A stretch of 64,000 bases of DNA from assembly GCF_002210425.1 (NCBI RefSeq), contig NZ_MWQK01000003.1, positions 1 through 64,000 of the forward strand, given 5' to 3'. Positions 8,460 through 37,612 of the stretch are shown here, one piece after another. Numbering within the stretch: position 1 is the first letter of the stretch; each line of letters starts with the position of its first letter. The DNA comes from Fibrobacter sp. UWB2. Its GTDB lineage: Bacteria; Fibrobacterota; Fibrobacteria; Fibrobacterales; Fibrobacteraceae. Below the pieces are notes generated by a model. That model was not told where the DNA came from. It was given only the letters and a program-made list of their open reading frames with translations, and made no database searches. Position numbers and translations under genes: made by a program.

Positions 8460-8467
8460 CTAATTCA

Positions 8468-17263: not shown

Positions 17264-17280
17264 GTTGAGGGGATAAAATG

Positions 17281-17470: not shown

Positions 17471-17505
17471 GGGGTGTTTGAGGAACTATGAATTAATATG
17501 AAGAA

Positions 17506-19842: not shown

Positions 19843-19886
19843 AATCACTCCTTTTCCAACCAAGGCTAGATAAGATTAACAATCAT

Positions 19887-19950
19887 AATTTATCCCATTT
19901 ACATGGTTTTAACCCGCAATCGCACGCCCTTTTTATGGATTTTTTATCAA
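19887..19950 (-). promoter_or_regulatory. Cluster operator-promoter module, GH43 gene (17506-19842)
   Basis: Minus strand palindrome TTGATAAAAAATCCA (19936-19950, centre 19943) with TAAATT at 19892-19887, 51 nt from the centre. Confidence 0.65.
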
Positions 19951-20175
19951 TAACACCCCATTACGGCCCCGAAAACGTGTCGAAAACCGCGCCTCTTTTG
20001 TAAAAATTCCTTTTCGCAATTTTCACAACGCTTTATAATTTTTCACAACACCAATTCGCAACACCCGAGGAACATCCATCTATATTTTGGATAGGTCTAG
20101 CGAAGATTGTGGGGATTTGGTTGGACCGGGTGGATGAATAGAGTTTGGAATGTTTAACTATAAAAAGGAGTCGCT
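19951..20175. other. Intergenic region upstream of the plus-strand esterase
   Basis: No gene is seen here. On the plus strand TATAAT occurs at 20034-20039 and TAGAGT at 20139-20144; either could be part of the esterase promoter, but neither has a convincing -35 partner. The cluster palindrome is absent on the plus strand. A small inverted repeat, ATCCA...TGGAT, lies at 20074-20092. Confidence 0.4.
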
Positions 20176-21660: not shown

Positions 21661-21696
21661 TGAATTTGATTTCATAATTCATCCTATATACACCAT

Positions 21697-21728
21697 AATC
21701 GCTCCGGGCAACCGGGGCGATTCTTTTA
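21697..21728 (+). terminator. Terminator of the plus-strand esterase
   Basis: AATCGCTCCGG-GCAA-CCGGGGCGATT followed by CTTTT, 37 nt after the stop codon. Confidence 0.85.
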
Positions 21729-21980
21729 TCTTGTATAGTTGTCAACTACTGAAATTTTGAAAAACACCCCAAAACCAGCTTTTCCACATTCAAAACTACA
21801 GACAACGTTTAAATATTACGTGAAAGCCACGTATTTTCAAACCTTTTTCACGTAAATTTCACCATTTTCTAAAAATTTCATTTTTTTTCACACACCAACA
21901 GGCATTCAAACCACCGATTACTTTTTATAAATGCGGACCATTGCGCATTCTTGATAACGCGCCGCGATCTCCGACTCCAT
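21729..21980. other. AT-rich intergenic stretch, no gene seen
   Basis: Between two convergent terminators lies about 250 nt of AT-rich DNA with scattered TTTCAC runs. I find no reading frame with a ribosome site and no stable hairpin. Confidence 0.5.
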
Positions 21981-21982
21981 AC

Positions 21983-22012
21983 GAAAAGAGCCCCGGCGGT
22001 TGCCGAGGCCCT
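21983..22012 (-). terminator. Terminator of the CE6/small-ORF unit
   Basis: Minus strand GGGCCTCGGC-AAC-CGCCGGGGCTC followed by TTTTC. It lies about 50 nt after the stop of the 27-codon ORF at 22063-22146, so that ORF is inside the transcript. Confidence 0.75.
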
Positions 22013-22062
22013 ATAGGAGTCACACTAATTTTTCCCGTGTATTATTCTCTCATTTTATTTTA

Positions 22063-22146
22063 TTAGCCGTACATGATGCCAAGAGCAACAGCGACGACAA
22101 AGAAGAAAGCGATTTGCTTTACAACTACCAACTCGTTTTTATTCAT
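22063..22146 (-). CDS. Putative 27-residue membrane peptide coupled to the CE6 gene
   Basis: A short frame, too small for ordinary gene finders, starts at an ATG (22144-22146) that overlaps the last codons and stop of the CE6 esterase gene in another frame. It reads MNKNELVVVKQIAFFFVV and continues AVALGIMYG. Lys and Glu at the front followed by about 18 hydrophobic residues give a single membrane helix. GGTGGTGA lies 6-13 nt before the ATG, inside the esterase's last codons, so translational coupling is possible. A terminator follows about 50 nt later. No known family; function unknown. Confidence 0.45.
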   Translation of the reverse strand: MNKNELVVVKQIAFFFVVAVALGIMYG

Positions 22147-23797: not shown

Positions 23798-23830
23798 TTT
23801 TATATCCCTTAATCCAAAATTTCTATAAAG

Positions 23831-23895
23831 AATCTACCCTAAAAAAGCCGTTTTGTAGCACAGCAGGGCTCCATATAATATGGACGTTTTGTCAA
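23831..23895 (-). promoter_or_regulatory. Cluster operator-promoter module, CE6 gene (22139-23797)
   Basis: Minus strand palindrome TTGACAAAACGTCCA (23881-23895, centre 23888) with TAGATT at 23836-23831. The spacing is 52 nt, one more than in all other copies. Confidence 0.65.
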
Positions 23896-23930
23896 TGAAT
23901 TGCGAAATTCGCTCAAAAAACGCATTTTGT

Positions 23931-23962
23931 AAAAAAAAGAGTCCTAGCATCCGCCAGGACCC
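23931..23962 (-). terminator. Terminator of the CE6 gene (23979-25598)
   Basis: Minus strand GTCCTGGCGGATGCTAGGAC followed by TCTTTTTTTT, 17 nt after the stop. Confidence 0.8.
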
Positions 23963-23978
23963 TTCATGGAGTCTAGAA

Positions 23979-25598
23979 TTATTCGAAAACGACAACCTTC
24001 TTGCTCATGAGTTTGGCGCCATTTTTGCGGATGAAGAACACTCCCTGAGCCTGCTTGCGGAGCTTGGCATCCGTCTTGACGAGGTTCATCGCGTCGGCCA
24101 TTCCCTTCGCGGTAAACGTCCCGAGCTTTTGGCCCTGCATGCTGTACACGCTAAAGTTGCTTTCGGCTTCAGTCATGTCAAAACGGACCTTTGCAATCGC
24201 GCTCGGCGGGTCTTCCTTCTTGGGCTCGCTGAACTGGATCCAGTCGATATTCACGTAGTTGGCGGTGATTTCGAGCTTGAGCACGTGCTTACCGGCCTTC
24301 AAGGTGACCTTTTCCTTCACGGAAATCGTCTTGTACGTGTCCCAGGAATTGTCGGCAGTCTGCGGCACGGAAACATCATCCGTTATGGCTTTTTCGTCGA
24401 TGTAAAGCTTGAACGCAGAGGTGGAATTACCGGCAGCGACACTTGCATCGATATTGTATTCGCCATCAGCCTTCACGTCTACCGTGTATTCAAGCCATTC
24501 GCCAGTCTGCGTGTAACCAAGAGCAACGCCATCGCCCGCCTTGTACAAGTCTACGCCCGTATCCTTGCGGTAATCGCTATCACCGTGGTTTTCGGAATCT
24601 TCGTCACTGTAAGAGGCGTTACTCGTACCGTCTTCGTTCTTGCCGATACCCGGCTTGTCAAAATCTTCGACTTCGACCTTGCCCGGAATAGCAATCGGAG
24701 CACCCTTGAACGGTTCCTGCGGGACAGGGTCAACAGGCGCCACGTTGATGAGCTTGAGCATTTGCTGGGCATAACGCTCACCCATGCCGCGGTAGCCTTC
24801 TACGGTAAAGTGGAGGCCGTCCCCCTTAGAGCCGTAACCCTTGGAACTTGCGACACCAAAGTTTGCAATGTACTTGGAAAGCCCACGCACACGACTGCTA
24901 AAGCCAGCACACGAACCGCCATCCACCATTTCGCCCGCGACAAACGGAGTTTCTTCGGCATTCAGGCCAAGCTGCTTGAGCATGTATTCGTAAGTCTTCT
25001 TGACAATCTGCTCCCAGTTGCTCATGCCGCCATCGGTTTCGCCCTGGTGGAAGATGATCCCCTTGATGACGCCCTTTTCCTGAGCCTTCTTGGCGACTTC
25101 AATAATGCGGCCCATGGCATTGCCATCGTCACCGTAAGCCTTGGCTCCGTTCTTCAGCCAGCTTTCCGCAGAATTGAGGTAATTCTTGTAATCGTCCGGG
25201 TCAAACAAGCGGATACTCGTACCGCCCTGAGCCACCGGAATAATGCCAATCGTCACGTTCGGCAAGGAATCTGCCATGTGGCGGCCAAACCAGTCAGCGA
25301 CAGAAAGGCCTTCACCGCACTTGAACATTGGCGGCACTGCCGGGTACATTTCACCGACCGTAGGGCGGCCAAGACTCGGGCAAGACGTTGTTGCAAACAT
25401 TTTCACGCGAGGATGTTCCTTCTTATCGACATCCGTAAAGTTCCTCGCGTTACCTTCCATGTTCGATTGCCCGTAAGCAATGTAAATATGGAAGTTCGGG
25501 TCCGGAGCCGCATTTGCACCCGTTACCGCAAACATAGAGAGGCCTGCAGCAACACCTGCAATGCCCATCAGCTTTTTGAAGCTCATTTCCACACTCAT
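23979..25598 (-). CDS. Secreted CE6 acetyl (xylan) esterase, second copy, with CBM6-like module and tail
   Basis: Paralogue of the neighbouring CE6 gene with the same order: signal peptide (MSVEMSFKKLMGIAGVAAGL..., cleaved near TGANA), SGNH esterase with Ser45 in IAYGQSNMEGN, FHQGETDGG, and His in GDGLHFTVEG; CBM6-like module (GKVEVEDFDKPGIG ... VNIDWIQF, about 305-440); and tail (FSVYSMQGQKLGTFTAKG ... GVFFIRKNGAKL). It is predicted to deacetylate xylan. It has no copy of the cluster operator: only 74 nt separate it from the GH30 gene, and these contain a terminator-like hairpin. It is therefore probably transcribed by read-through from the GH30 promoter, at a lower level. Confidence 0.9.
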   Translation of the reverse strand: MSVEMSFKKLMGIAGVAAGLSMFAVTGANAAPDPNFHIYIAYGQSNMEGNARNFTDVDKKEHPRVKMFATTSCPSLGRPTVGEMYPAVPPMFKCGEGLSVADWFGRHMADSLPNVTIGIIPVAQGGTSIRLFDPDDYKNYLNSAESWLKNGAKAYGDDGNAMGRIIEVAKKAQEKGVIKGIIFHQGETDGGMSNWEQIVKKTYEYMLKQLGLNAEETPFVAGEMVDGGSCAGFSSRVRGLSKYIANFGVASSKGYGSKGDGLHFTVEGYRGMGERYAQQMLKLINVAPVDPVPQEPFKGAPIAIPGKVEVEDFDKPGIGKNEDGTSNASYSDEDSENHGDSDYRKDTGVDLYKAGDGVALGYTQTGEWLEYTVDVKADGEYNIDASVAAGNSTSAFKLYIDEKAITDDVSVPQTADNSWDTYKTISVKEKVTLKAGKHVLKLEITANYVNIDWIQFSEPKKEDPPSAIAKVRFDMTEAESNFSVYSMQGQKLGTFTAKGMADAMNLVKTDAKLRKQAQGVFFIRKNGAKLMSKKVVVFE

Positions 25599-25624
25599 AT
25601 CTATCTCCCTTTTAACAAACTCTT

Positions 25625-25660
25625 AAAAAAACAGGAGCCAATTGCTCGGCTCCCGTTTTT
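25625..25660 (-). terminator. Terminator-like hairpin between GH30 and CE6 genes
   Basis: Minus strand ACGGGAGCCGAGC...GGCTCCTGT followed by T7. Because the CE6 gene downstream has no visible promoter, partial read-through is likely. Confidence 0.8.
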
Positions 25661-25672
25661 AGGAATATGAAA

Positions 25673-27745
25673 TTATTTTGCCACAGAAATGCGGTAGGAT
25701 TTGCCCCCCAGCGACTTCACAAAGTAAATGCCATTCTGACGCACCACGCTCTTGGTCATGCGCTGGACATCGGCCTTGGTCGTAGCAAGGAACTTGCCCA
25801 CGAGCACGCCGTTCACGTCGAAGACACTGTAATTTTCGGCTTCGGTCGGCAAGCGGAAATTAGCACCGCGCAAACCAATCGTCTTATCGTCCGGATCGGC
25901 AGCATCCTTGCCCTTTGCAAAGTTGAAGTAGTCGATATCGAACCAGGAACCCGTCACCGTCATGCGGAGAATATGTTCGCCAGCCGGGAGCGTTACGTTG
26001 GCCTTGACCTTCACAAAGTCATCGAAGCTCGTTCCCGAAAGTGCGACATTTTCTACAAGAGTTTTTCCATCCAAGGAGAGCGAGAAACCAGACGTCGAAT
26101 TACTCGTAGCGACAGAAGCAAACATTGTGTAATCACCAGCTTCCTTCACGTTCACGGAGTATTCGAGCCATTCGCCTTCTTCGTTATAGCCGACCACATA
26201 GCCAGTAGCCTTCTTGTAAATATCGACACCCGTGCCTTCGCGGTAGTTCGTTTCGCCACGGTCTTCGGAATCGTTTTCGCTATAAGACTTGTTGCCCTTG
26301 CCCGTACCCGGAACGTCAAAGTTTTCGGCTTCGATTTTGCCCGGGATTTCAGCGACCTTACCACCAAACGGTTCGCGAGGTACAGGATCTGCCGGAGTGC
26401 CACTGCCCACGAGTGTCACAATGCAGTCCTTGTTGCTTGAATTGCCGGCATCCATGGTAATCGTCACGGAGCCATTCTTGACTTCGACTTCGCCTTCGTA
26501 CTTTGCATTTTTCGCTTCGCTAGTGGTGTACACATGGAAAGTTTCCACATCGGCACCCTTCACATTGACGGTCACAGTCTTGCTATTCTTGTAGTCGCGG
26601 TTCACGAGCACCACGATAACGCTATCGCCATCTTTGCTCTTGTATGCACTTGCAAAGACTTCCTTTTCGGGGTTTGCCGTAGCGCCCACGCGGACAGCAC
26701 CCGGGCGGACAAAGCGCGCAAACTGGCTCATCACGTAGCCGCGCTTAGAAATCTTGCCGATTTCGTTCTGCGGAATCTGGAGTTTGTTTCCAAAATCCTT
26801 TTCCATGATGAGGCCGTAGCAACGACGGATGTACCACCAGGTGTACTGATTGAAATTGCCCACGACCATGGCGCGGTGGATTTCGTAAGCCACGTCCATG
26901 GCGTTCACGGTATCGCGCTTGTTGGCGTTCGCCTGGTCACCCGTATTCGTAATCGTGCGCCAGTAGTTACCGCTTCCCTGGCTTTCGGTATAGTGTTCCG
27001 TCATCCAGCGTTCGACTTTTTTCTGGTCAGCAAGGCTGTACTGGAAGAAGTTGTCCCCAGTCCTTCGGTCACTCGCGTAAAAATGCGCGCCGAGAATGTC
27101 CCAGTTCTTGAGGGCATTGGCATCGTTCAAGACCTTGTTGTAGAGGTTCTTGTCATAACGGAAGGATTCCGTCGAAATCACCTTCGCGCCATTCTTGCGC
27201 ATCTTGTCGGCATAGCCCTTGGTGAAGTTGTAGATTTCGTCGGCACTCCAGCAGGCCCATTCACCGCACCAGTCCGGTTCGTTACTGATGGAGATGGCGT
27301 ACAGGGGAACGCCCTGATTCTTCATGTAATCGTTGAAGTTGTTCAGGTGGTCCACGTACTTCTGGTAATTCGAAGAAGCCATGTGCTGGTTCGCCCCTGC
27401 GTACGGCGATGTCCACGGAGTCGCGTAAAGGATAAAGTCATCGCCGGCGTACTTTTTGGCATACTTTGCGGCCTGAACTTCCTTGTTGAAGTCATTGGAA
27501 TTGGCGTAAACCGGAATACGGAGCGTGTTGAGGCCAATTGTGCCATCGCCCGTACCAAAAGCGATCTTCGCATCGGCTTCGGAAAGGCCACCACCGCCCT
27601 GCCACTGGTTATGCACCATGCCACCAAACCCGCGAATCACCTGGTGTTCTTCCGTTACGTCGACATTGACCGTCGAGGCAAAAGCAGGTATAGCAAAAAC
27701 CAAACCGTAAGCGGCAGCCTTCAAGACTTCACCCATGCGCTTCAT
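25673..27745 (-). CDS. Secreted GH30 (subfamily 8) glucuronoxylanase with CBM6-like module and tail
   Basis: Predicted endo-xylanase cutting the xylan backbone next to glucuronic acid branches. Start MKRMGEVLKAAAYG at 27745 is preceded by GGAG 7 nt upstream; the signal peptide ends near PAFAST. The GH30 barrel shows acid/base Glu156 in SISNEPDW and nucleophile Glu250 in WMTEHYTE. WWYIRRCYG (303-311) contains the Arg/Tyr pair that in GH30_8 enzymes holds the glucuronic acid carboxylate, so appendage-dependent cutting is expected. The side beta domain runs to about residue 465, the CBM6-like module is about 485-615 (GKIEAENFDVPGTG ... FDIDYFNF), and the tail reads YSVFDVNGVLVGKF ... GIYFVKSLGG. 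It is the only backbone-cutting xylanase seen here. Confidence 0.92.
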   Translation of the reverse strand: MKRMGEVLKAAAYGLVFAIPAFASTVNVDVTEEHQVIRGFGGMVHNQWQGGGGLSEADAKIAFGTGDGTIGLNTLRIPVYANSNDFNKEVQAAKYAKKYAGDDFILYATPWTSPYAGANQHMASSNYQKYVDHLNNFNDYMKNQGVPLYAISISNEPDWCGEWACWSADEIYNFTKGYADKMRKNGAKVISTESFRYDKNLYNKVLNDANALKNWDILGAHFYASDRRTGDNFFQYSLADQKKVERWMTEHYTESQGSGNYWRTITNTGDQANANKRDTVNAMDVAYEIHRAMVVGNFNQYTWWYIRRCYGLIMEKDFGNKLQIPQNEIGKISKRGYVMSQFARFVRPGAVRVGATANPEKEVFASAYKSKDGDSVIVVLVNRDYKNSKTVTVNVKGADVETFHVYTTSEAKNAKYEGEVEVKNGSVTITMDAGNSSNKDCIVTLVGSGTPADPVPREPFGGKVAEIPGKIEAENFDVPGTGKGNKSYSENDSEDRGETNYREGTGVDIYKKATGYVVGYNEEGEWLEYSVNVKEAGDYTMFASVATSNSTSGFSLSLDGKTLVENVALSGTSFDDFVKVKANVTLPAGEHILRMTVTGSWFDIDYFNFAKGKDAADPDDKTIGLRGANFRLPTEAENYSVFDVNGVLVGKFLATTKADVQRMTKSVVRQNGIYFVKSLGGKSYRISVAK

Positions 27746-27789
27746 AGTAAATCTCCTAAAAAAGTAATCCCATATTTTTTCGTAATTTA

Positions 27790-27853
27790 AATTTATACCC
27801 ATCGCGCAATCATTTTACACCCCCAGAATAATTTTCCATTGTCAATTTGGTAA
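27790..27853 (-). promoter_or_regulatory. Cluster operator-promoter module, GH30 gene
   Basis: Minus strand site TTACCAAATTGACAA (27839-27853, centre 27846) within CATTACC...CAATGG, and TAAATT at 27795-27790, 51 nt from the centre. It is a divergent copy, closest to the orphan site at 28231-28245. Confidence 0.55.
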
Positions 27854-27909
27854 TGCGTAGGCCGAGCGTCGCAACCGTAAATACAACAAATGCGTAGGCC
27901 GAGCGTCGC
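27853..27909. repeat. Two exact 20-bp direct repeats
   Basis: ATGCGTAGGCCGAGCGTCGC occurs at 27853-27872 and again at 27890-27909. A degenerate third copy (TTGCGTAAGGCGAGTGATGC) follows about 13 nt later. The first copy touches the GH30 operator. This is not a CRISPR array: there are only two exact copies with a 17-nt gap. Confidence 0.8.
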
Positions 27910-27979
27910 GGATGCACACAGTTGCGTAAGGCGAGTGATGCAGGATTGCTCGCAAGCCTATATCCGAGCCTAGCAACTG

Positions 27980-28174
27980 GCATTTGCACATAGTGCAAAT
28001 GCAAACACCTCGGAACATTCGTCCCGAGGTGTAATGACGCCATTCAGCGCCATTAGGGTGTGTGGTTTAGGAGGATCGTTTGGGCTTCAGGCGCCCTACA
28101 AGGCCGTAAACAATAGCCTATCGCAAACTCAAAAACATCTCAAATTTTTCGCCTGCAAAACGGCAAGGCTTTCC
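27980..28174 (-). ncRNA. Candidate small RNA or decayed leader behind the orphan promoter
   Basis: A promoter module of the cluster type (28182-28245) points into a region with no reading frame having a ribosome site. A transcript starting near 28174 would end in two strong hairpins: ACACCTCGG...CCGAGGTGT (28005-28032) and a perfect 10-bp stem GCATTTGCAC-ATA-GTGCAAATGC (27980-28002). Neither has a long T-run. It could be a regulatory RNA, the leader of the GH30 mRNA, or the scar of a deleted enzyme gene. Confidence 0.35.
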
Positions 28175-28181
28175 AATATGG

Positions 28182-28245
28182 AATTTAGAATCTCCAGACG
28201 CCCAAAAGGCATTTTTCCAAATATTTATCATTGACATTTTGGTAA
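28182..28245 (-). promoter_or_regulatory. Orphan cluster operator-promoter module with no gene behind it
   Basis: Minus strand site TTACCAAAATGTCAA (28231-28245, centre 28238) with TAAATT at 28187-28182, 51 nt from the centre. The nearest start codon downstream (GH30) is more than 430 nt away and has its own copy of the module. Confidence 0.55.
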
Positions 28246-28255
28246 TGGGGCAGCG

Positions 28256-28297
28256 ACAAAAAAACACCCCAGAGCTTTTGCCTTCGGGGTGCTTTTC
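28256..28297 (-). terminator. Terminator of GH43 gene (28326-30518)
   Basis: Minus strand GCACCCC...GGGGTG followed by T7, about 30-70 nt after the stop codon. Confidence 0.8.
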
Positions 28298-28325
28298 GTT
28301 ATTTGGTTTCGGAATTATATGAATT

Positions 28326-30518
28326 TTATCTTGCGACAGAGGTCATGAAGGTCTTGTGGCCGTCAACGCTCTTAAGCATGTAAACGCCCTTGTTGAAACC
28401 AGCACTCTGGAGAGCTTCGGCGGCCTTCTTTCCGGCGAGTTCCACCGTGCCGAGCAGCTTGCCGCTCACGCTATACACGCGGTAGGTGCTCGGAGCATTT
28501 GCCTGGAACTTCACAGTCGGCTTGAGACCAACCTTTTCCACATCGCCAAGGGAGAACCAGTCTACGTTCACATTGTCGCCCGTAATCACGAGACGAATCA
28601 CGTGCGTGCCCTTGGTAAGTTTCGCCTTGCCTCCGTCAAATTCCTTATAGACGCTCCAGTCTTCACCGGTCTGCGGAACCGTAATGGTATCGCCAATTGC
28701 CTTGCCATCGGCCAAGAAGCAGAAGCTTGCGCTTTCCATGCCAGTAGAAGCCGAGGCCTTAATCGCATAATCACCGTCTTCCGGGACTTCGACCGTGTAT
28801 TCGAGCCATTCGCCAGAAGCGGTATAGCCAATCGCCATGCCCGTACCGCCTTCGACAATGTCAACGCCCTGGTCTTCGCGGAACTTGGCATCGCCCTGGT
28901 TTGCCTTTTCGTTATCGCTGTAAGAATCCACATCGCCACCGCGGCCAACGCCCGGGATGTCATAATGTTCAGCTTCAATCTTTGCCGGAAGCGTCACAGC
29001 CTTTTCGCCATACGGTTTCTGCGGTTCCGGCGGAGTTGTGCCGCTACCTTCAAAGCCCCAAGCCTTAATTGCCATGGTGGAGTCCTGAGAGCCCTTGAAC
29101 ACGAGGAAAATTTCATCTACGATGCCCTTGAGGCCGGTCACTTCGCAGGAATTTTCTGCAAAAGTGTTCTTGTTGCCGGTATTCTTGAGCGTACAAGAGC
29201 CAGCGAGCGTACCTGTAGCAGAGCCCGAATGAATTTCAATCTTGTTGCCATCAGCAGCGCTTGCCGCCTGAACCACAAAGCCCGTTGCCGCCGTACCAAA
29301 GTCCACGCCACTCACGCGAATCCAGGATTCCTTCGTGGAAAGCGGGAGCAAGAGGTGTTCTGCGACCTTGCCCGGAGTCCAGTTCGAACGGCTGCGGATG
29401 CCTTTCTGCTTAGAACTCGTGAGTGCCGGATACCAGTCATACGGATCGAAGTTTTCAATCTGTTTCGGGCCTTCCTTCGTGAAGGTCAGTTCCTTCATGG
29501 TACCGTCACCGTTGTAGAAAAACTCGTCAACACTCACGCTGCGGTGGAATGCCGGCACCGGATTCGCCTTACCGTCATCGGCAGGAATCTTTTCCAAGCC
29601 GTCGTAACCGTTGGCAATGCGGCGGTCATGATAAGCGACATACCAGTGGCCCTTGAATTCGGCAATGCCGTGGTGGTTATTGTTGTTGGCGTTGATGTTC
29701 TGGCCGCCAATGTTCGGGTTACCCATGAAAATGCCCTTGTATTCATAAGGACCCATGGGGTTCTTGGACATGCCGTATGCAATGCGCAAATCCGCCGTAC
29801 TGTAAGAGAGATAGTAATTACCCTTATACTTGTGGATGTAAGAGGCTTCCATCGCCTTCGGACCACCAATCTTCAGGTGAGTCTTGGTGCTCACATCGAA
29901 GCCCTTCATGTCCTTGTTGAGCTTGTAGATGTTGAAAATGTCGTTATTGTTGTTATTTGCCGGGCGGCTATCGCTGCTACCGCCACCAAAGGTGAAGTAG
30001 CCTGTACCGTCGTCATCGAAGAAAATTGCCGGGTCAAAGCACCAACCAATACCGTCGCAGTCCGAAATACCGCCACCCCAGTTGTTGATGAGCTTCTTGT
30101 TGCCAGAGACCGGGTTTGTCCACGGACCTGCAATACTATCGGCACCGATGAGGCCAACGCCGCCGCCACCGCCATCCGGGAACACAATGTAGAGTCTGTG
30201 GTCATTCGGGTTCACCGCAATACCAGAAGCCCAGATATCACCAATGCCATCGACCTTGCGGGCATCATAAATGATACCGAAGTCGGTCCAGTTCTTCATA
30301 TCCTTCGTGCGGAAACCGTAAAGGGCCTTGATATTATAGCCATTGGCATTCGATGCAGCAGGGTCATCCGAGTCGGTTATGACATAGAAATAAGTATCAT
30401 CGGCAGCGGCACCCGGGTCCGCCAAGTAATGGTAAGCCGAAATCGGGTTATCGGCAAGTGCGCCAACACCAAAACCGGCGAGCAAGCCTGCCATCGTTAA
30501 ACGTTTCAGTAATCTCAT
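28326..30518 (-). CDS. Secreted GH43 arabinofuranosidase-type enzyme, copy 1 of 3 (GH43-CBM6-CBM6-tail)
   Basis: Predicted arabinoxylan arabinofuranohydrolase, similar in layout to the F. succinogenes enzyme Axh1 as I remember it (GH43, X domain, CBM6, FPm-1). The signal peptide is MRLLKRLTMAGLLAGFGVGALA. Catalytic residues by family pattern: Asp35 in YLADPGA, Asp162 in WCFDPAIFFDDDG, Glu224 in AMEASYIHK. A CBM6-like X module lies about 375-495 (AEHLLLPLSTKESW ... IKAWGFEG) and a typical CBM6-like module about 510-640 (AKIEAEHYDIPGVG ... VNVDWFSLG). The tail is YRVYSVSGKLLGTVELAG ... GVYMLKS. AAGGAG precedes the ATG. Its 5' leader resembles those of the next two GH43 genes. Confidence 0.9.
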   Translation of the reverse strand: MRLLKRLTMAGLLAGFGVGALADNPISAYHYLADPGAAADDTYFYVITDSDDPAASNANGYNIKALYGFRTKDMKNWTDFGIIYDARKVDGIGDIWASGIAVNPNDHRLYIVFPDGGGGGVGLIGADSIAGPWTNPVSGNKKLINNWGGGISDCDGIGWCFDPAIFFDDDGTGYFTFGGGSSDSRPANNNNNDIFNIYKLNKDMKGFDVSTKTHLKIGGPKAMEASYIHKYKGNYYLSYSTADLRIAYGMSKNPMGPYEYKGIFMGNPNIGGQNINANNNNHHGIAEFKGHWYVAYHDRRIANGYDGLEKIPADDGKANPVPAFHRSVSVDEFFYNGDGTMKELTFTKEGPKQIENFDPYDWYPALTSSKQKGIRSRSNWTPGKVAEHLLLPLSTKESWIRVSGVDFGTAATGFVVQAASAADGNKIEIHSGSATGTLAGSCTLKNTGNKNTFAENSCEVTGLKGIVDEIFLVFKGSQDSTMAIKAWGFEGSGTTPPEPQKPYGEKAVTLPAKIEAEHYDIPGVGRGGDVDSYSDNEKANQGDAKFREDQGVDIVEGGTGMAIGYTASGEWLEYTVEVPEDGDYAIKASASTGMESASFCFLADGKAIGDTITVPQTGEDWSVYKEFDGGKAKLTKGTHVIRLVITGDNVNVDWFSLGDVEKVGLKPTVKFQANAPSTYRVYSVSGKLLGTVELAGKKAAEALQSAGFNKGVYMLKSVDGHKTFMTSVAR

Positions 30519-30567
30519 TGTTCACTCCTTGGGATCGACCAAACACACCGCCATCCCGTTTTTTATA

Positions 30568-30631
30568 AAACTACCCTCAGAAACGCCAAAAGACCCACGA
30601 AAAATCGTAGGTCTCATGGACAAAAAGTCAA
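30568..30631 (-). promoter_or_regulatory. Cluster operator-promoter module, GH43 copy 1
   Basis: Minus strand palindrome TTGACTTTTTGTCCA (30617-30631, centre 30624) with TAGTTT at 30573-30568, 51 nt from the centre. Between them is a terminator-like hairpin GACCTACGA...TCGTGGGTC + TTTT (30613-30588). Confidence 0.7.
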
Positions 30632-30632
30632 T

Positions 30633-30661
30633 AAAAGGAGATGCCCGATCAAGTCGGGCAT
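30633..30661 (-). terminator. Terminator-like palindrome after GH43 copy 2
   Basis: Minus strand ATGCCCGACTTGATCGGGCAT followed by CTCCTTTT. The same element, ATGTCATGCCCG...CGGGCATCTCCTTTT, is found at 41731-41765, so it is a dispersed repeat used as a terminator. Confidence 0.65.
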
Positions 30662-30690
30662 GACATTAAAGCCTGTCGGGCATGACATCC

Positions 30691-32913
30691 TTAGCGAGTG
30701 GTGCGAACTTTTGCCACCGCGCCGTTGTAACGGTTACGGATGATGCAAACGCCCTGCACGTTCTTGGACTGCGGATTTTCGCGCCAGAGCTTCTTGGCTT
30801 CGTGGATATTGCGGGCCGTGAAGCTAGAAACCTTCTTGCCGGTCAAGTCGAACACGTCGAAGTTTGCGACTGCATCTGCACCAAGCACCCTGAAGCCCTT
30901 GATACCAATCGTTTCGTCGTCCGGATCCTTAGCGTCCTTCCCTTTAGCAAACGTCATATAGTCGATATCGAACCAGTCGCCCGTAACAGTGAAGCGCAGG
31001 ACATGTTCACCGGCCGTGAGCTTCACATTGGCCTTGACCTTCACAAAGTCATCCCAGCTGTCGCCGGAAACCGGGACTTCAGCGATAGACTTGTCGTCAA
31101 TGGAAAGCGTAAAGCTAGCAGTGGAATTGTCCGTTGCCACAGAAGCAAACATCGTGTAGTCGCCATCTTCCTTGACGTTCACGGTATATTCAAGCCATTC
31201 GCCGGACTGGTTGTAGCCCACGACATAGCCTGTAGCCTTCTTGTAGATATCGACGCCAGTGTCTTCGCGGTAGCTCTTGCCACCATTTTCGATGCCATGG
31301 TCTTCGGAATCGTTTTCGCTGTAGGACTTGATTTCACTACCGCGGCCAGAACCCGGAATGTCGAAGTCTTCCATTTCAATCTTGCCCGGAATTTCCCAAG
31401 CCTTGCCGCTAAACGGCTTCTGCGGTTCCGGAGGAGTCGTGCCACTGCCTTCGAAGCCCCATGCCTTGACAGCCATGGTCGAATCCTGATTACCCTTGAA
31501 CACGAGGAACAGCTGCTTTACGACGCCCGAGAGGCCTTCGACATCGCACTTGTTTTCGGCATAGGTGTTCTTGTTGCCGGTATTCTTGATGGTGCAAGTA
31601 CCCGCAAGCGTACCCGTTGCAGAACCCGAGCGGATTTCGACCTTGTTACCATCAGCCGTGCTTGCGGCTTCAACGGTAAAGCCCGTTGCGCCAGCGCCAA
31701 AGTCCACGCCCGACACGCGGAGCCAAGCTTCCTTGCTCGAAAGCGGGAGCATCACATGGTCAGCGGCCTTGCCCTGCACAAAGTTAGAGCGGCTGCGGAT
31801 GCCCTTCTGCTTGGAGCTCGTGAGTGCCGGATACCAATCGTACGGGTCAAAGTTTTCAATCTGTGCCGGACCTTCATCCGTCACCTTCACCGTCTGAATG
31901 GTGCCGTCAGCATTGTAGAACATTTCGTCTACAGAAACGCTACGGTGGTAACCTTCGTTCGGTTTTGCCTTGCCATCATCTGCCGGGATAATTTCCAAGC
32001 CGTTGTGACCCTTCGCGATACGGCGGTCATGATAGACAACGTAAGAATGTCCCTTGAATTCGGCAATACCATGATGGTTGTTGTTGCCATTGATGCTACG
32101 GCCGTTCATGCTCGGGTCGCCAAGAATCGTACCCTTCCAGGTGTACGGGCCCATAACGTTGTTCGAGATACCGTAGTCAATCGTCGGAGCGCCCTGCTGC
32201 CAGCCAGTACTGTAAGAGAAGTAGTAAGTACCCTTGTGCTTGTGGATGTAAGAAGCTTCGAGCATCTTGCGGGTCGGCAAGTTGTTCACCTTCACATGGG
32301 AACCGTTGCCCACCGGGGCGTTCTTGGCATCGTTCAACTTGACAATGTCGAAGTTATCAGTGTTTGGACGGCTAGTGCTTTCGCCGCCGCCCCATGTCAC
32401 GTAGGTGGTTCCGTCGTCATCGATAAAGATACCCGGGTCAAAGCACCAGGAAACGCCATCGCAACCGATGATACCGCGACCACCGACAAGCTTATCCTTG
32501 CCCTGGCCCACGGCGTTTGTCCAAGGGCCTTCAATTGCAGGCGCCTTGATGTAGCCAATGCCGCCGCCACCGCCATCCGGGAACACGATGTAGAATGTAC
32601 CGTTGTGGACTGCAATACCAGAAGCCCAAATGTCGTTAATGCCACTTACCTTGCGGGCATCGTAAATAATGCCGTAGTCGGTCCAGTTCTGCATATCCCT
32701 ACTGCGGAATGCATAGAGGGCGTAAATCTTGTAACCGTTAGAATTGTACGGAGCCGGGTCATCGGAGTCCGTGATGATGTAGAAGTAATCATCGTCAGCA
32801 GCAGCACCCGGGTCAGCCAGGTAATGGTAAGTAGAAATTGGGTTATCGGCAAGCGCGCTTACTCCAAAGCCCGCCAAGAGTCCAAACATCGTTACTTTCT
32901 TAAGTAGTTTCAT
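30691..32913 (-). CDS. Secreted GH43 arabinofuranosidase-type enzyme, copy 2 of 3
   Basis: Close paralogue of the genes on both sides; predicted to remove arabinose from arabinoxylan. Signal peptide MKLLKKVTMFGLLAGFGVSALA; GH43 residues Asp35 in YLADPGA, Asp in WCFDPGIFIDDDG, Glu in KMLEASYIHKHKG. An X/CBM6-like module (DHVMLPLSSKEAW ... VKAWGFEG), a CBM6-like module (GKIEMEDFDIPGSG ... FDIDYMTF) and a C-terminal module (FDVFDLTGKKVSSFTARN) follow. The extreme C-terminus, GVCIIRNRYNGAVAKVRTTR, differs from the usual GVYFVRS type but is shared with copy 3, so copies 2 and 3 are the closest pair. AAGGAG lies before the ATG. Confidence 0.9.
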   Translation of the reverse strand: MKLLKKVTMFGLLAGFGVSALADNPISTYHYLADPGAAADDDYFYIITDSDDPAPYNSNGYKIYALYAFRSRDMQNWTDYGIIYDARKVSGINDIWASGIAVHNGTFYIVFPDGGGGGIGYIKAPAIEGPWTNAVGQGKDKLVGGRGIIGCDGVSWCFDPGIFIDDDGTTYVTWGGGESTSRPNTDNFDIVKLNDAKNAPVGNGSHVKVNNLPTRKMLEASYIHKHKGTYYFSYSTGWQQGAPTIDYGISNNVMGPYTWKGTILGDPSMNGRSINGNNNHHGIAEFKGHSYVVYHDRRIAKGHNGLEIIPADDGKAKPNEGYHRSVSVDEMFYNADGTIQTVKVTDEGPAQIENFDPYDWYPALTSSKQKGIRSRSNFVQGKAADHVMLPLSSKEAWLRVSGVDFGAGATGFTVEAASTADGNKVEIRSGSATGTLAGTCTIKNTGNKNTYAENKCDVEGLSGVVKQLFLVFKGNQDSTMAVKAWGFEGSGTTPPEPQKPFSGKAWEIPGKIEMEDFDIPGSGRGSEIKSYSENDSEDHGIENGGKSYREDTGVDIYKKATGYVVGYNQSGEWLEYTVNVKEDGDYTMFASVATDNSTASFTLSIDDKSIAEVPVSGDSWDDFVKVKANVKLTAGEHVLRFTVTGDWFDIDYMTFAKGKDAKDPDDETIGIKGFRVLGADAVANFDVFDLTGKKVSSFTARNIHEAKKLWRENPQSKNVQGVCIIRNRYNGAVAKVRTTR

Positions 32914-32958
32914 AACACTCCTTAGGATCGACCATACACCGTCAATCCATCCAATCTA

Positions 32959-33022
32959 AAAGTATGTCCAAAATCACAAAAAAGAACGCGGCGGTCCGCA
33001 AGCATCATGGACAAAACGTCAA
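32959..33022 (-). promoter_or_regulatory. Cluster operator-promoter module, GH43 copy 2
   Basis: Minus strand palindrome TTGACGTTTTGTCCA (33008-33022, centre 33015) with TACTTT at 32964-32959, 51 nt from the centre. A small hairpin (GCGGACCGCCGC + T-rich) lies between. Confidence 0.7.
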
Positions 33023-33044
33023 CGAGTCCGTAAAAATTTGGATG

Positions 33045-33077
33045 CAAAAAAGGCCCCTCTTGCGAGAAGCCCTTTTA
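33045..33077 (-). terminator. Terminator of GH43 copy 3
   Basis: Minus strand AAAAGGGCTTCTCGCAAGAGGGGCCTTTTTT, about 25 nt after the stop. Confidence 0.8.
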
Positions 33078-33102
33078 TACGGATGTGTGTTTCTTGGAGA
33101 TT

Positions 33103-35334
33103 CTAGCGGGTCGTGCGGACCTTAGCCATCATGCCGGTACCACGGTTGCGGATGATGCACACGCCCTGCACATTAACCTGGGCGCCACCACGCAGCATGT
33201 TCTTCGCTTCGTCCATGCTATGGGCCGTGAAGCTAGAGACCTTCTTACCGGTCAAGTCGAACACGTCGTAAGTCGCAGCGGCAATCGCATTCATGCGAAT
33301 CTTCTGGCGGATAGCCACTTCGCTACCTTCATCCGGGTCCTTGGCATCCTTGCCCTTAGCAAACTGGATATAGTCAATATCCATCCAGTCGCCAATCACG
33401 GTAAAGCGGAGGATATGCTTGCCAGCCGGGAGCTTCACATTCGCCTTCACCTTGCTATAGTCGTCATAGTTTTCTTCGCCATCGTTCTTCGGGACAGAAA
33501 TCGATTCCGTAATATCGTCACCATCGATGGAGAGCTTGAAGCTGGAGGTCGCATTGGCAGAAGCCACAGCCGCAAACATCGTGTAGTCGCCTTCAGCAGC
33601 CACATCCACAGTGTATTCCAGCCATTCATCCGTTTGGTTGTAACCGACGACATAGCCCGTAGCCTTCTTGTAGATATCTACGCCAGTGCCTTCGCGGTAG
33701 CTCTTGCCACCATTGCTTTCGGCACCGTGGTCATCAGAATCGTTATCAGCGTAAGAATCGTTGCCTGCGCCGTAGCCCGGTTCATCGAAGTTTTCCATTT
33801 CAATCTTGCCCGGGATTGCCCAAGCCTTGCCGCCAAACGGAGTCTGCGGTTCAGGTTCGCGCTTCGTGCCCTGGAATTCCCATTCGAGAACGCCCATGGT
33901 CGAGTCCTTGCCATTGTTCTTGAACACGAAGAACACCTGGTCAACAACGCCGGTGAGGCCCTTCATTGCGCAATCGTTATCCACGAAGGTCTTGTTATTA
34001 GCGGTCTTAGCAAGTTCGCAAGTACCGGCCAACGTGCCGCTCGCGCTACCCGTATGGATTTCAATCTTGTTGCCTTCGCCCACGTTAGCGGCCTTGATGC
34101 GGAGGTTTTCAGCACCCTTACCGAAGTCCACGCCAGAAACACGAATCCAAGATTCGCTACGGCTCGTAAGCGGCAAGAGCACATGCACAACGGGCTTGCC
34201 CTGAGTCCAGTCCGTACGGCTACGGATGTTCATCTGCTTGGAACTCGTCGTTGCCTTGTAGGTCTTGTACGGGTCAAAGTTCTTGATCTGCTTTGGTCCT
34301 TCACGTGTGAAGGTGAGCTTGTTCATCTTGTCGCCATTCCACGTGAGTTCGTCGATAGACACGCTTCTGTGGTTTTCGTAGTTCGGGTTTTCGGAACGCA
34401 CGCCCTGCTGCGTCGTTGCGGCCGGGTGGTTGTCAGAAGTCACCAAGCGACGGTCGTGGTAAACGGCATACCACTTGTCCTTGAACGGAGCAAAGCCCTG
34501 GTGGTTGTTGCCGCCTTCGCCATGAGCGTCCGGCACAGAGCCGATGCCCGGAATAACCGTACCCACAAAGGTATACGGGCCCCAAATATTGTTAGACATA
34601 CCATAGTCAATCACCTGGCTACGGTTGTTGAAGCTCAAGTAATAAGTGCTACCCTTCTTGTGCAGGTAAGGAGCTTCAAAAGAGTTCGGCAAAGAGACCT
34701 TCTTCAATGAGTTCTTGTCGAAAGTAATCTTGCCATTGCTTTCGGTAAAACTGATAATGTCAAAGTTGTTGCCGTAGGGGCGCTGGCCGCTTTCGCCACC
34801 ACCGAAAATCACGTAACCCTTACCGTCGTCATCGATCAAGATGCCCGGGTCAAAGCAATGCGCAATGCCATCGCAACCTCCGATAAGACTTCCGCCACCA
34901 GCAATTCTGTTGACACCATGGGTTTCCTTGACGGGGTCGGTATAAGGCCCGTCGATAGCCGGGGCGGTAATCATACCCACGCCGCTTGCACCATCGGGGT
35001 AAACGATATAGACCTTACCATTCTTGACTGCGATGCCCGATGCCCAAGTATTGTTCGGATAGTTCCCGAATTCACGCCTGGAGCGGAAAATCATGCCGTG
35101 ATCAGTCCAGTTCTTCATGTCTTCAGACGTGAAGGCGTAAAGGCCGACAATATCGTAGTTCCAGTTCGTCTGGTTGTTATAGTCATCCACATCGGTCAAG
35201 ATGTAGAAGGTATCACCGTCAGAGGCGCAAGAAGGGTCCGCCAGATAGTGATAGCTAGAAATAGGGTTGTCAGCAAGCGCGCTTACACCAAAGCCAGCAA
35301 TTAAGCCCAGTGCAGCCAAACGTTTCATGTTCAT
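33103..35334 (-). CDS. Secreted GH43 arabinofuranosidase-type enzyme, copy 3 of 3
   Basis: First structural gene of the cluster in transcription order. Start MNMKRLAALGLIAGFG at 35334 is chosen because GAAGGAG lies 5-11 nt upstream and a signal peptide follows; an in-frame extension of 32 codons lies in the promoter. GH43 residues: Asp34 in YLADPSC, Asp in HCFDPGILIDDDG, Glu in FEAPYLHKKG. X/CBM6-like module (VVHVLLPLTSRSESW ... VLEWEFQG), CBM6-like module (GKIEMENFDEPGYG ... MDIDYIQF) and C-terminal module (YDVFDLTGKKVSSFTAHS ... GVCIIRNRGTG) follow. Predicted arabinoxylan debranching outside the cell. Divergence from copies 1 and 2 around the catalytic Glu suggests a different fine specificity. 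Confidence 0.9.
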   Translation of the reverse strand: MNMKRLAALGLIAGFGVSALADNPISSYHYLADPSCASDGDTFYILTDVDDYNNQTNWNYDIVGLYAFTSEDMKNWTDHGMIFRSRREFGNYPNNTWASGIAVKNGKVYIVYPDGASGVGMITAPAIDGPYTDPVKETHGVNRIAGGGSLIGGCDGIAHCFDPGILIDDDGKGYVIFGGGESGQRPYGNNFDIISFTESNGKITFDKNSLKKVSLPNSFEAPYLHKKGSTYYLSFNNRSQVIDYGMSNNIWGPYTFVGTVIPGIGSVPDAHGEGGNNHQGFAPFKDKWYAVYHDRRLVTSDNHPAATTQQGVRSENPNYENHRSVSIDELTWNGDKMNKLTFTREGPKQIKNFDPYKTYKATTSSKQMNIRSRTDWTQGKPVVHVLLPLTSRSESWIRVSGVDFGKGAENLRIKAANVGEGNKIEIHTGSASGTLAGTCELAKTANNKTFVDNDCAMKGLTGVVDQVFFVFKNNGKDSTMGVLEWEFQGTKREPEPQTPFGGKAWAIPGKIEMENFDEPGYGAGNDSYADNDSDDHGAESNGGKSYREGTGVDIYKKATGYVVGYNQTDEWLEYTVDVAAEGDYTMFAAVASANATSSFKLSIDGDDITESISVPKNDGEENYDDYSKVKANVKLPAGKHILRFTVIGDWMDIDYIQFAKGKDAKDPDEGSEVAIRQKIRMNAIAAATYDVFDLTGKKVSSFTAHSMDEAKNMLRGGAQVNVQGVCIIRNRGTGMMAKVRTTR

Positions 35335-35380
35335 ACACACTCCTTCGGACCAGCCATACACCGCCAATCCATCCATTATT

Positions 35381-35444
35381 AATCTACCTCCAAACAACAA
35401 AAAAAGACCTGCAAAGCGATGCAGGTCCATTGATAAAATGTCAA
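35381..35444 (-). promoter_or_regulatory. Cluster operator-promoter module, GH43 copy 3
   Basis: Minus strand palindrome TTGACATTTTATCAA, extended to ATTGAC...ATCAATGG (35430-35444, centre 35437), with TAGATT at 35386-35381, 51 nt from the centre. The terminator of the upstream lipoprotein gene lies between operator and -10. Confidence 0.7.
35399..35427 (-). terminator. Terminator of the regulator-lipoprotein operon
   Basis: Minus strand ACCTGCATCGCTTTGCAGGT followed by CTTTTTTT. It sits inside the promoter module of the next gene, after the operator. Confidence 0.8.
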
Positions 35445-35456: not shown

Positions 35457-36677
35457 CTACTCTTCTTTCCGGACAACGCTCTTCTTCACAACCGGGGCGT
35501 ACGGGTCAAAGATACCGTAGCCAAAGACTTCGATATCGTCCACCCAGACTTCCGTATCCATAGCGCCGAAGATGCCAATCTTTGTGACACTGTCCTTCAC
35601 CGCTTCCCAACCGTAGTTACCGCCATTGCTGTCAGCCGTATCCAGTTCCGCCGGAATCACGGTAAACTGCGTCCAGACCGTATCCGCCTCGAAATGGCGC
35701 CAAGACTTGATATTATCGGAACTCGTCACGGAATCGTCATTCACGAACCTGTCAAACGAGAACGAAATTCTCGACGGAGTCGAGACGCGGACCCAGAAGC
35801 GGATAGAATCCAAATCGCTCATGTTGACATAGCCACCCAGTTCACGACCGATAAGAGCCCAGTCCCACTGAGCCGCAGAATCGCGTTTGCAGATAAAGTG
35901 TGCCGCCTTGCCTTCGCGACCAAGACCTGCCGATTCAATATTAAAGGTGACCTCCGCGTTGAGCGATGCCGCAGTTTCCCAAACGCCAGCGCCATTTTCA
36001 AAGTCATCGAATACAAAGTACGTCTTGACGTAAGCGGAGTCGCCGAGGTAAAGGGCGCCTTCACTGGAGTCAGAGCCAACGTCAGCTTCAATTCGGCCAT
36101 ATTCCGTAACCGAGTCAGCGCCAGCTTCGTTCACGAATGCGACAATCTCGACATTGCCGTTCGGGAGCGATTCAAATTCAAAGTAGCCCGTGGAATCCAT
36201 CGAGACCTGGTAGTCCAAGCCCTGCACAGAGACCGTAGCGGAACTGCGCACCAGTTGCGGAAGACCGACTCGACCGGAGACCTTGGTCGGTTCCGAAACT
36301 TCGACTGTCAAAGGAGTCGTCGTATCCGATTCGACGTAGGCAATCTTTTCAAAGCCCTTCAAGTTCAGGGAATCGCTACGTGCTTCAATCACGTAAGAGC
36401 CCGACGGAACGCTAGACAGGACAACGCGTCCCTGTTCGTCGGTTTCAAAGTGCAACTGGTACAGGGAGTCCGATCCGAGTTCGGATGCACCGGACAAGTA
36501 AGATTCAGGGCGGACAATAACGTCCATACGTGCAGCAGGCGTGCCATCGGCCAATTGAACAAGCACCGCGATGGAATTCTCAGTTTCCATCGACGATCCT
36601 GCGGTACGACCGCTATCGCAGGCGACATTGAACAGAGCCAACGTCGCCAACCCATATGTCCACGCCCGTTTAATCAT
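35457..36677 (-). CDS. Lipoprotein with beta domains and CBM11-like C-terminus, partner of the regulator
   Basis: Predicted envelope lipoprotein of 406 residues. The N-terminus MIKRAWTYGLATLALFNVAC gives a lipid-attached Cys20. A carboxypeptidase-regulatory/SpaA-like beta domain (IAVLVQLADGTPAARMDVIV, about 35-135), a second beta domain (KVSGRVGLPQLVRSSATV, about 134-215) and a jelly roll resembling CBM11/CIA30 modules (FVFDDFENGAGVWETAAS ... EVWVDDIEVFGYG, about 222-395) follow. No catalytic residues are seen. Its ATG overlaps the stop of the regulator gene by 4 nt (ATGA), so the two are translationally coupled. I infer that it senses or binds a sugar at the envelope and works with the regulator; a structural role in glycan binding is the alternative. 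Confidence 0.75.
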   Translation of the reverse strand: MIKRAWTYGLATLALFNVACDSGRTAGSSMETENSIAVLVQLADGTPAARMDVIVRPESYLSGASELGSDSLYQLHFETDEQGRVVLSSVPSGSYVIEARSDSLNLKGFEKIAYVESDTTTPLTVEVSEPTKVSGRVGLPQLVRSSATVSVQGLDYQVSMDSTGYFEFESLPNGNVEIVAFVNEAGADSVTEYGRIEADVGSDSSEGALYLGDSAYVKTYFVFDDFENGAGVWETAASLNAEVTFNIESAGLGREGKAAHFICKRDSAAQWDWALIGRELGGYVNMSDLDSIRFWVRVSTPSRISFSFDRFVNDDSVTSSDNIKSWRHFEADTVWTQFTVIPAELDTADSNGGNYGWEAVKDSVTKIGIFGAMDTEVWVDDIEVFGYGIFDPYAPVVKKSVVRKEE

Positions 36678-37540
36678 TTTTTATCTCCTGCACCTTCCCC
36701 TACTATTATAGTATTTTCCGACGCCCCTCCTTTACGGGCAACCGGGTAAAATGCCATAGAAAGCTGCATAACACGATCAGGATTCTTGGCTCCGTCCACT
36801 CTTTTTTGGACCAGACGGCGGAATTCCCTCAACATGTCGCCCAAATCCTCGAAGCAGGACTGGTCTACAGAAAGGGTCAGTGTAGAAATGTTACGTTCAT
36901 TGACGGGGACGTTTTCGAGCGCATCGCTCGCAAGGCTCAGCACCTGGCGCTGGAAATTGCGCACGGCCTTGGCCTTTTCGGGGCCCCCTACTGTCAAATG
37001 GGCTTCGGTGAGTGCGAGCTTGCCCGATGCAAGCTTCTTCACGAGACCGACGCTCTTCAAAGTTTCAATGGCTTCGAGAGCCTGTTCCTCAGTGATCGGC
37101 GGGCAGATGTCTTTGGCAATCTGCTTGACGTTTACAACGCCACCGTTCAATTCCAGGTAGGCGCGTACCGCAGGAATCCACCAGTTTTCGAGGAGTTTAA
37201 GTTCAGCAGCCTGCAAAGAATGGCGTTCCACGTCGCGGAGCGAGAGTGCCTTCGCCATGAGTTCTTCGCGCTTAGTCTTATCCTTGCTGACAGCAGCAGA
37301 ATAAAGGAGGTCGAAGTATTCGGCCTCGCGACCACTCAGCGCAAGGATTTCCTTTGCCGCAGGTAATGCATGAGCAGGCAAGTGCTGCTTCTTTTGCAAT
37401 ACGCGATAGAGATAGCTGGAGTCTAGCCCGAGCTTATCACCCATCATGCGGTAGCTGTAGAAGGGCATCTCGACCTTGCGCCTGTCGTAGAATTCCTTCA
37501 AGAAGTCGCGGTAATCCGCTATGTCAGAAAAAGTAACCAT
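36674..37540 (-). CDS. TIGR02147-family putative transcriptional regulator
   Basis: Protein of 288 residues of the TIGR02147/DUF4423 type, a family I know mainly from Fibrobacter. The N-terminal part (MVTFSDIADYRDFLKEFYDRRK, then YSYRMMGDKLGLDSSYLYRVLQKKQHLP, about 27-55) looks like a helix-turn-helix of the Cro/XRE kind. The rest is helical, with a winged-helix-like piece about 125-185 (ITEEQALEAIETLKSVGLVKKL). No signal peptide, so it is cytosolic. ATG at 37540 is used; the start has no strong ribosome site. The gene lies at the head of the cluster, overlaps the lipoprotein gene by 4 nt and carries the cluster operator in its own promoter. Candidate regulator of the regulon, by inference only. 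Confidence 0.7.
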   Translation of the reverse strand: MVTFSDIADYRDFLKEFYDRRKVEMPFYSYRMMGDKLGLDSSYLYRVLQKKQHLPAHALPAAKEILALSGREAEYFDLLYSAAVSKDKTKREELMAKALSLRDVERHSLQAAELKLLENWWIPAVRAYLELNGGVVNVKQIAKDICPPITEEQALEAIETLKSVGLVKKLASGKLALTEAHLTVGGPEKAKAVRNFQRQVLSLASDALENVPVNERNISTLTLSVDQSCFEDLGDMLREFRRLVQKRVDGAKNPDRVMQLSMAFYPVARKGGASENTIIVGEGAGDKK

Positions 37541-37548
37541 CAATATCT

Positions 37549-37612
37549 AAAATATTTAAAACTTACCGCTGGGAACCTACAATGTAAACATTTGGTATGG
37601 ATATTTTGTCAA
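37549..37612 (-). promoter_or_regulatory. Cluster operator-promoter module, regulator gene
   Basis: Minus strand palindrome TTGACAAAATATCCA (37598-37612, centre 37605) with TATTTT at 37554-37549, 51 nt from the centre. The ATG is only 9 nt after the -10 element, so the mRNA would be nearly leaderless, which fits the missing ribosome site. Confidence 0.7.

Follow-up and report, generated by a model that had tools for sequence, protein, structure and literature searches.

A TIGR02147-family regulator and its partner lipoprotein at a Fibrobacter hemicellulase cluster: a conserved palindrome and a predicted regulon

Fibrobacter species are among the major agents of cellulose degradation in the rumen. 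The window analysed here, a whole stretch of 64 kb, is a piece of a 3.53-Mb Fibrobacter genome, in which gene calls were the open reading frames (ORFs) taken around each locus. On the minus strand of the window a regulator gene, here R32, and a lipoprotein gene form a pair that heads a cluster, with a 34-kb run of secreted CAZyme genes downstream. The main features are as follows.

36674..37540, minus strand: TIGR02147/DUF4423 regulator R32 (NCBIfam, Pfam, AlphaFold, VIA-align, orthologues)
35457..36677, minus strand: partner lipoprotein, 406 aa (ORF, lipobox, AlphaFold)
36567..36602, minus strand: post-cysteine motif of the lipoprotein, AGSSMETENSIA, residues 26–37 (orthologue alignment, genome profile search)
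35514..36032, minus strand: CBM11-like jelly-roll domain of the lipoprotein, residues ~216–388 (Foldseek 1.9e-8, VIA-align Z 17.4)
1500..35339, minus strand: hemicellulase cluster in the regulon model (Pfam scans)

From the end nearest the pair, the cluster consists of three GH43 genes, a GH30-like gene, two SASA/CE6 esterase genes, an unknown gene and another GH43 gene, followed by an esterase gene with CBM4_9 and then GH27, GH141, GH43, GH2 and GH95 genes; most of the encoded proteins carry CBM6 (Pfam scans). It seems, from its families and their order, to be the counterpart of a known cluster of F. succinogenes S85, FSU_2262-2274 and onward (PMC3079729, PMC6851124), the control of which was ascribed, as a suggestion, to two metal-dependent response regulators reported inside that cluster (PMC3079729). 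The S85 genome paper names the regulation of cellulase genes in Fibrobacter as an unanswered question, and reports that hemicellulose products are neither transported nor used by F. succinogenes (PMC3079729).

The regulator frame is open from a TTG at 37543 (36674-37543, minus strand), with the ATG at 37540 as the likely start. The protein is a clear member of TIGR02147 (Fsuc_second), scoring 187.8 bits over its full length (NCBIfam; cut-off 50), and of DUF4423, with 94 bits (Pfam; cut-off 30). Its AlphaFold model, which has a mean pLDDT of 69.6 and a poorly modelled C-terminal third, begins with an XRE/HigA-like helix-turn-helix (HTH) domain (residues ~2–90; pLDDT about 90 for residues 10–60), after which a winged helix is predicted (residues ~103–187). 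In VIA-align the HTH matched HigA-operator complexes with a Z of about 8, and the winged helix also reached about 8; such a value is weak alone but agrees with the TIGR02147 family model. Pfam HTH_31 fell below its cut-off, and Foldseek with the whole regulator gave no significant whole-protein match. Exactly one R32 orthologue, 84–99% identical, was found in each of 36 other genomes of the genus.

The lipoprotein start overlaps the regulator stop in the sequence ATGA (36674-36677). A signal peptide, the lipobox FNVAC-D and a cysteine (Cys20) that follows the hydrophobic stretch and is invariant in 29 orthologues mark the product as a predicted lipoprotein, and no transmembrane segment is apparent inside its sequence. 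Pfam gives a match to CarboxypepD_reg, and the AlphaFold model shows a jelly roll along with two beta domains of TTR-like type. Among solved structures the jelly roll comes closest to CBM11, a fold known for binding mixed-linkage glucan, with 155 residues of 1v0a aligned at Z 17.4 (VIA-align). CBM_11 is not among the Pfam matches up to E 1, so that the domain is predicted to be CBM11-like by fold and not by sequence. It resembles CBM11 of C. thermocellum Lic26A-Cel5E (PDB 1v0a, 6r3m) as a jelly roll (Z 17, about 155 residues) but differs in having about 16% identity and no Pfam CBM_11 match. A preliminary description made from the sequence had placed the pair at the head of the cluster, with genes overlapping by 4 nt, an HTH-like N terminus and no signal peptide in the regulator, and two beta domains and a CBM11-like jelly roll in the lipoprotein; all of these points were borne out, the regulator also lacking a signal peptide here and its N terminus having a HigA-like fold.

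The element that links the pair to the cluster is a 15-bp palindrome, TKGAY-N5-RTCMA, referred to here as the operator. The form TTGACNWWWWRTCMATR, with one mismatch allowed, has 12 matches in the window against 0.24 expected, and the relaxed palindrome TKGAYNWWWNRTCMA has nine occurrences within 4.6–37.6 kb, with 17 in all other parts of the 3.5-Mb genome. Each of the nine exact palindromes of the window lies 5' of a gene on the minus strand that belongs to the cluster or to the pair. No enrichment was seen for bare TTGAC-N5-GTCAA when two mismatches were allowed, so both the A/T spacer and the choice of C or T in the half-site are important. The sites are listed below; each combines a palindrome with a -10-like box.

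37598..37612, minus strand: operator in the regulator promoter, TTGACAAAATATCCA; -10-like box TATTTT at 37549-37554
35430..35444, minus strand: operator before a GH43-CBM6 gene (start ~35339), TTGACATTTTATCAA; -10-like box at 35381-35386
33008..33022, minus strand: operator before the GH43-CBM6 gene 30691-32913
30617..30631, minus strand: operator before the GH43-CBM6 gene 28326-30518
23881..23895, minus strand: operator before the SASA/CE6-CBM6 esterase gene 22139-23797; -10-like box at 59
19936..19950, minus strand: operator before the GH43-CBM6 gene 17506-19863
15520..15534, minus strand: operator before the GH27-CBM6 gene 13535-15436
13442..13456, minus strand: one-mismatch operator TGGATAAACAGTCCA before the GH141-CBM6 gene 10745-13354; -10-like box at 58
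8517..8531, minus strand: operator before the GH2 beta-galactosidase gene 4941-8438
4636..4650, minus strand: operator before the GH95-CBM6 gene 1500-4535

Several genes of the cluster lack an individual operator. A site at 28231 before the GH30-like gene has two mismatches and is not claimed; the stretch upstream of that gene contains no site within two mismatches in promoter orientation. Across species, the palindrome is the sole conserved block in the regulator promoters of 30 orthologues, and it is exact in 45 of 48 promoters of a second set of regulator loci, which shares species with the first and so is not independent of it. Sites are 35 times denser on the cluster side of the regulator (83 per 447 kb) than on the other side (2 per 377 kb). 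The preliminary description had the same operator in the regulator promoter and considered autoregulation likely: the site is there, conserved across species, and its presence in that promoter and in most cluster promoters means that comparative genomics lends good support to autoregulation as well as to control of the cluster. Some species have, immediately upstream of the operator in front of the regulator gene, a CRP-like palindrome, TGTGAC-N4-GTCAC (L074-L084, L138-L144, L147 and L180), which may place the pair under catabolite control.

The operator keeps a fixed distance from a -10-like box. At eight of the nine exact window sites a TA..TT box occurs 58 nt after the first operator base, and at the ninth it is at 59, the background being 0.9% per position; among 71 non-redundant target promoters, 50 have the box at 57–59. 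Regulator promoters have it at 58–59 or at 76–78, distances that differ by about two helical turns. Between the operator and the -10-like box there is no visible -35 consensus; some other promoters of the TIGR02147 family have normal -35 boxes. That TTGAC might be a plain -35 box was rejected, as many species have TGGAY there yet keep the palindrome, and as the distance to the -10-like box is 58 nt. The operator is thus found at a fixed helical phase upstream of the inferred core promoter, the arrangement of class I activation (9/9 in the window; 50/71 targets). In bacterial activators of that class, CRP is centred at -61.5, and the Fibrobacter operator, with a centre that would lie near -63 from the inferred transcription start and a second distance some two turns further, is similar; R32 differs from CRP in coming from an unrelated protein family, and its start sites are inferred.

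A fixed operator-to-minus-10 distance, with the operator upstream of the inferred core promoter, points to an activator rather than a repressor. HigA/XRE-type HTH proteins, whose fold the regulator matches, are usually repressors, and autoregulated pairs are often repressed, so R32 could be imagined as repressing the cluster and its own operon through the palindrome. We regard this as quite improbable: the operator lies upstream of the inferred core promoter and not over it, one fixed distance recurs in unrelated genes (58, with 77 in many regulator promoters), and there is no -35 consensus.

The composite motif (operator, 43 nt, TANNTT) was matched 343 times in 31 of 31 Fibrobacter genomes, as the sum of the listed counts, and its reversed control twice; 20 genomes of other genera, families and classes had no match. 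Beyond the window, the genes marked by the composite motif encode two GH10-CBM6 xylanases, two PETase-like lipoproteins and one secreted CarboxypepD_reg protein; at two more sites, which lie before a GH5 gene and a second CarboxypepD_reg protein, the box is at 57. Relaxed sites elsewhere in the genome that lack a -10-like box at 57–59 were taken as chance. The predicted regulon includes GH43, GH95, GH2, GH27, GH141, CE6 and GH10 genes and the pair itself.

Comparison with paralogues bears on which protein binds the palindrome. R31 is 47% identical to R32, shares part of its recognition-helix region (LGLDSS..Y....QKK), and has the same palindrome nearby in 14 of 14 loci, in some of which it precedes an operon of a glucuronoyl esterase and a SASA esterase. 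By footprinting, R28 orthologues conserve a different sequence with a clear dyad, GTGGACAAAAATGTC[AC]AC, and R34 orthologues a loose ATTG-N9-CAAT dyad. Among the paralogue groups checked, R32 and R31 are the only ones with the same palindrome nearby, and since the R28 and R34 footprints differ from it, different pairs appear to have their own operators (three groups checked). It is not claimed that every pair has its own palindrome: a scan of the 34 paralogue promoters of this genome alone gave p<0.05 in only eight, and terminators contaminate the scan. The genome contains a single exact copy of the R28 site, next to a GH26 gene; the R28 pair (L033, C3:129-131 kb) is divergent from this GH26-CBM35 gene, with the conserved operator in their common intergenic region, and may control the mannanase. 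At the R31-side palindrome in F. succinogenes-type genomes, a -10-like box is followed by a conserved non-coding stretch of ~150 nt that is closed by a long stem, shows some compensatory changes and includes a T-tract (C2:117202-117353, plus strand, in this genome; L035:6203-6354, L168, L169-L173, L175, L176, L179), which is a candidate small RNA under the same operator; in an Rfam scan no family reached threshold.

These comparisons make R32 the putative binder of the palindrome. The palindrome could instead be the operator of another regulator, for example the response regulators suggested for the S85 cluster (PMC3079729), with the TIGR02147 gene merely one of its targets, and position and co-occurrence cannot prove binding. 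This is unlikely, given that nothing else in the TIGR02147 promoter is conserved as a block, that the palindrome accompanies the close paralogue R31 at all 14 loci, that the promoters of R28 and R34 conserve other dyads, and that the site and the R32 orthologue are both confined to the genus.

The pairing of regulator and lipoprotein extends far beyond this locus. Besides one fragment, the genome carries 34 TIGR02147 genes of full length, and for 33 of the 34 the next gene encodes a lipoprotein that starts -20 to +18 nt from the regulator stop. R17 is the only one without a partner directly downstream, where the genes are on the other strand; a lipoprotein bearing the post-cysteine motif is found in the adjoining divergent operon (L036, C7:60-64 kb). 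A partner is present beside all 62 R32- and R31-group loci from public Fibrobacter genomes, and, counted by eye, at about 25 of 29 readable loci (of 30, in six genomes) from elsewhere in the phylum, in other families and classes, where the 4-nt overlap is again the usual arrangement; Fibrobacterota sampled outside the genus have 4 to 53 TIGR02147 copies per genome. The preliminary description had taken the pair as a candidate system of this locus. It holds as a conserved unit, but as something special to the locus it gives way to a phylum-wide rule. Of the checks proposed there, whether pairs recur next to CAZyme genes is answered by such recurrence, whereas the palindrome does not go with pairs in general: most others are without it, and the two that were footprinted have different conserved dyads.

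In several cases (L047, L050, L051, L054, L032, L045, L036, L049) the operon continues beyond the pair, with a gene for a second lipoprotein, a GH5 enzyme, a large secreted protein with GLUG repeats or a barrel protein of the outer membrane. Four tandem pairs, R09-R12 (L046, C5:145-165 kb), have similar promoters with an apparent -35 TTGAC and -10 TATATTT. One contig edge (C1:786625-786870) carries a TIGR02147 fragment, truncated and with a stop codon in frame, together with the beginning of its partner lipoprotein, the rest of which seems to lie at the start of contig C4 (C4:5-127).

The outer domains of the 33 partners vary (Pfam: CarboxypepD_reg in 12, Fib_succ_major in nine, LamG in two, pectate lyase in one and CBM4_9 in one; TIGR02145 in nine). 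What they have in common is a segment after the lipidated cysteine, roughly C-x(3-9)-AG-x3-E-T-x-N-x-I-A. Its profile finds 24 places in the genome, 20 of them known partners; of the other four, two belong by position to the truncated pair, one is the R17-linked lipoprotein, and one is weak and unpaired (E 0.1). The motif AG-x3-ETxN therefore occurs almost only in TIGR02147-linked lipoproteins of this genome. In the window lipoprotein its ETEN is invariant in 29 of 29 orthologues, and the motif, predicted to be unstructured (AlphaFold), has a mean conservation of 0.88 against 0.54–0.61 for the folded domains; outside ETEN, identity falls to 34–48% in most orthologues.

Enterococcal PrgX-type pheromone receptors sense lipoprotein signal peptides, and the obligate pairing, the invariant ETEN segment and a weak Foldseek similarity of the regulator to PrgX (E 0.1) could suggest that R32 likewise senses a peptide from its partner, either the signal peptide or the ETEN tether. 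This seems very improbable, as conservation of the signal peptide (0.56) is no higher than that of the lipoprotein body (0.54–0.61), and what follows the HTH in the model is predicted to be a winged helix rather than TPR repeats; PrgX was absent from the top VIA-align rows, which is not counted as exclusion.

A more serious possibility, though a somewhat doubtful one, is that R32 is a stand-alone one-component activator responding to a cytosolic signal through its C-terminal domain, with the lipoprotein as a co-expressed surface effector. No step across the envelope would then be needed, and other pairs do have an enzyme as partner (pectate lyase) or a second lipoprotein, GH5 or outer-membrane protein in the operon; for many partners (Fib_succ_major, pectate lyase, LamG) a role as surface effector is as plausible as a role in sensing. 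It leaves unexplained why a partner stands beside essentially every TIGR02147 gene and why the motif is near-exclusive to these partners, and it sits poorly with the report that hemicellulose products do not enter the cell (PMC3079729). Because those products are reportedly not transported or used, envelope sensing is favoured and a cytosolic sugar sensor is less likely; taken with the obligate pairing and the pair-specific motif, this suggests the lipoprotein as input.

The reading we favour, and hold to be moderately probable, is that the pair is one of about 34 modules, in which R32 activates its own operon and a hemicellulose regulon with the lipoprotein as input. The pairing, operator conservation, spacing, regulon content, co-occurrence with the regulator and confinement to the genus are read from the genome sequences, and from these we infer that R32 binds the palindrome and activates. 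Cytosolic R32 would bind TKGAY-N5-RTCMA as a dimer and, centred roughly 63 bp upstream of the inferred start, recruit RNA polymerase to promoters with a -10 box but nothing recognisable as a -35 box. It would thus activate its own two-gene operon, the GH43/GH95/GH2/GH27/GH141/CE6 cluster, the two GH10 xylanases and a few more genes. With less confidence, the translationally coupled CBM11-like lipoprotein may be the dedicated input component, or sensor, of R32, binding beta-glucan or hemicellulose at the cell surface and influencing the regulator through its conserved ETEN segment. As the lipoprotein has no transmembrane part, there is no visible signal route; the signal would probably cross the membrane by a common transmembrane or proteolytic step that is not encoded at the locus, and a common transducer or RsgI-like proteolysis (PMC12203970) is conceivable.

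Among known systems, the Sigma-I/RsgI pairs of C. thermocellum (PMC4711584, PMC12203970) are similar in that there are several paralogous regulator-sensor pairs per genome, with carbohydrate-binding modules of the sensor outside the cell and CAZyme genes under their control. RsgI, however, is a single transmembrane anti-sigma factor that acts on a sigma factor and is subject to regulated proteolysis (PMC4711584, PMC12203970), whereas in the Fibrobacter pair a DNA-binding protein of HTH type is combined with a lipoprotein that lacks a transmembrane segment. Neither a sigma factor nor an RsgI N-terminal domain was found in Pfam and NCBIfam scans of the two proteins, which places the pair outside Sigma-I/RsgI. 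Polysaccharide loci of Bacteroidota have hybrid two-component and SusR-type regulators beside the CAZyme cluster; the Fibrobacter locus also has a local regulator beside its cluster, but no histidine kinase, membrane-spanning sensor or SusC/D pair was seen there.

TIGR02147 (Fsuc_second)/DUF4423 is a named paralogue group without a function. In the open-access literature we found no functional paper on it, only one table entry for Bdellovibrio, and no description of a partner gene, operator or regulon for the family. The present analysis would provide a first functional hypothesis, in which its members are tied to a lipoprotein partner as a possible sensor. The regulon part of this proposal has strong comparative evidence, and the signalling part is a hypothesis. 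Tentatively, the pairs may represent an undescribed envelope-to-DNA class, with dozens of cis-encoded pairs in which a lipoprotein with the pair-specific ETxN tether would read an extracellular polymer and a TIGR02147 activator would respond; the pairs themselves encode no membrane-spanning protein, and one common transducer or processing of the lipoprotein would carry the signal across the membrane. With a named regulator, operator, promoter architecture and regulon, the question of how Fibrobacter controls its fibre-degrading enzymes becomes directly testable.
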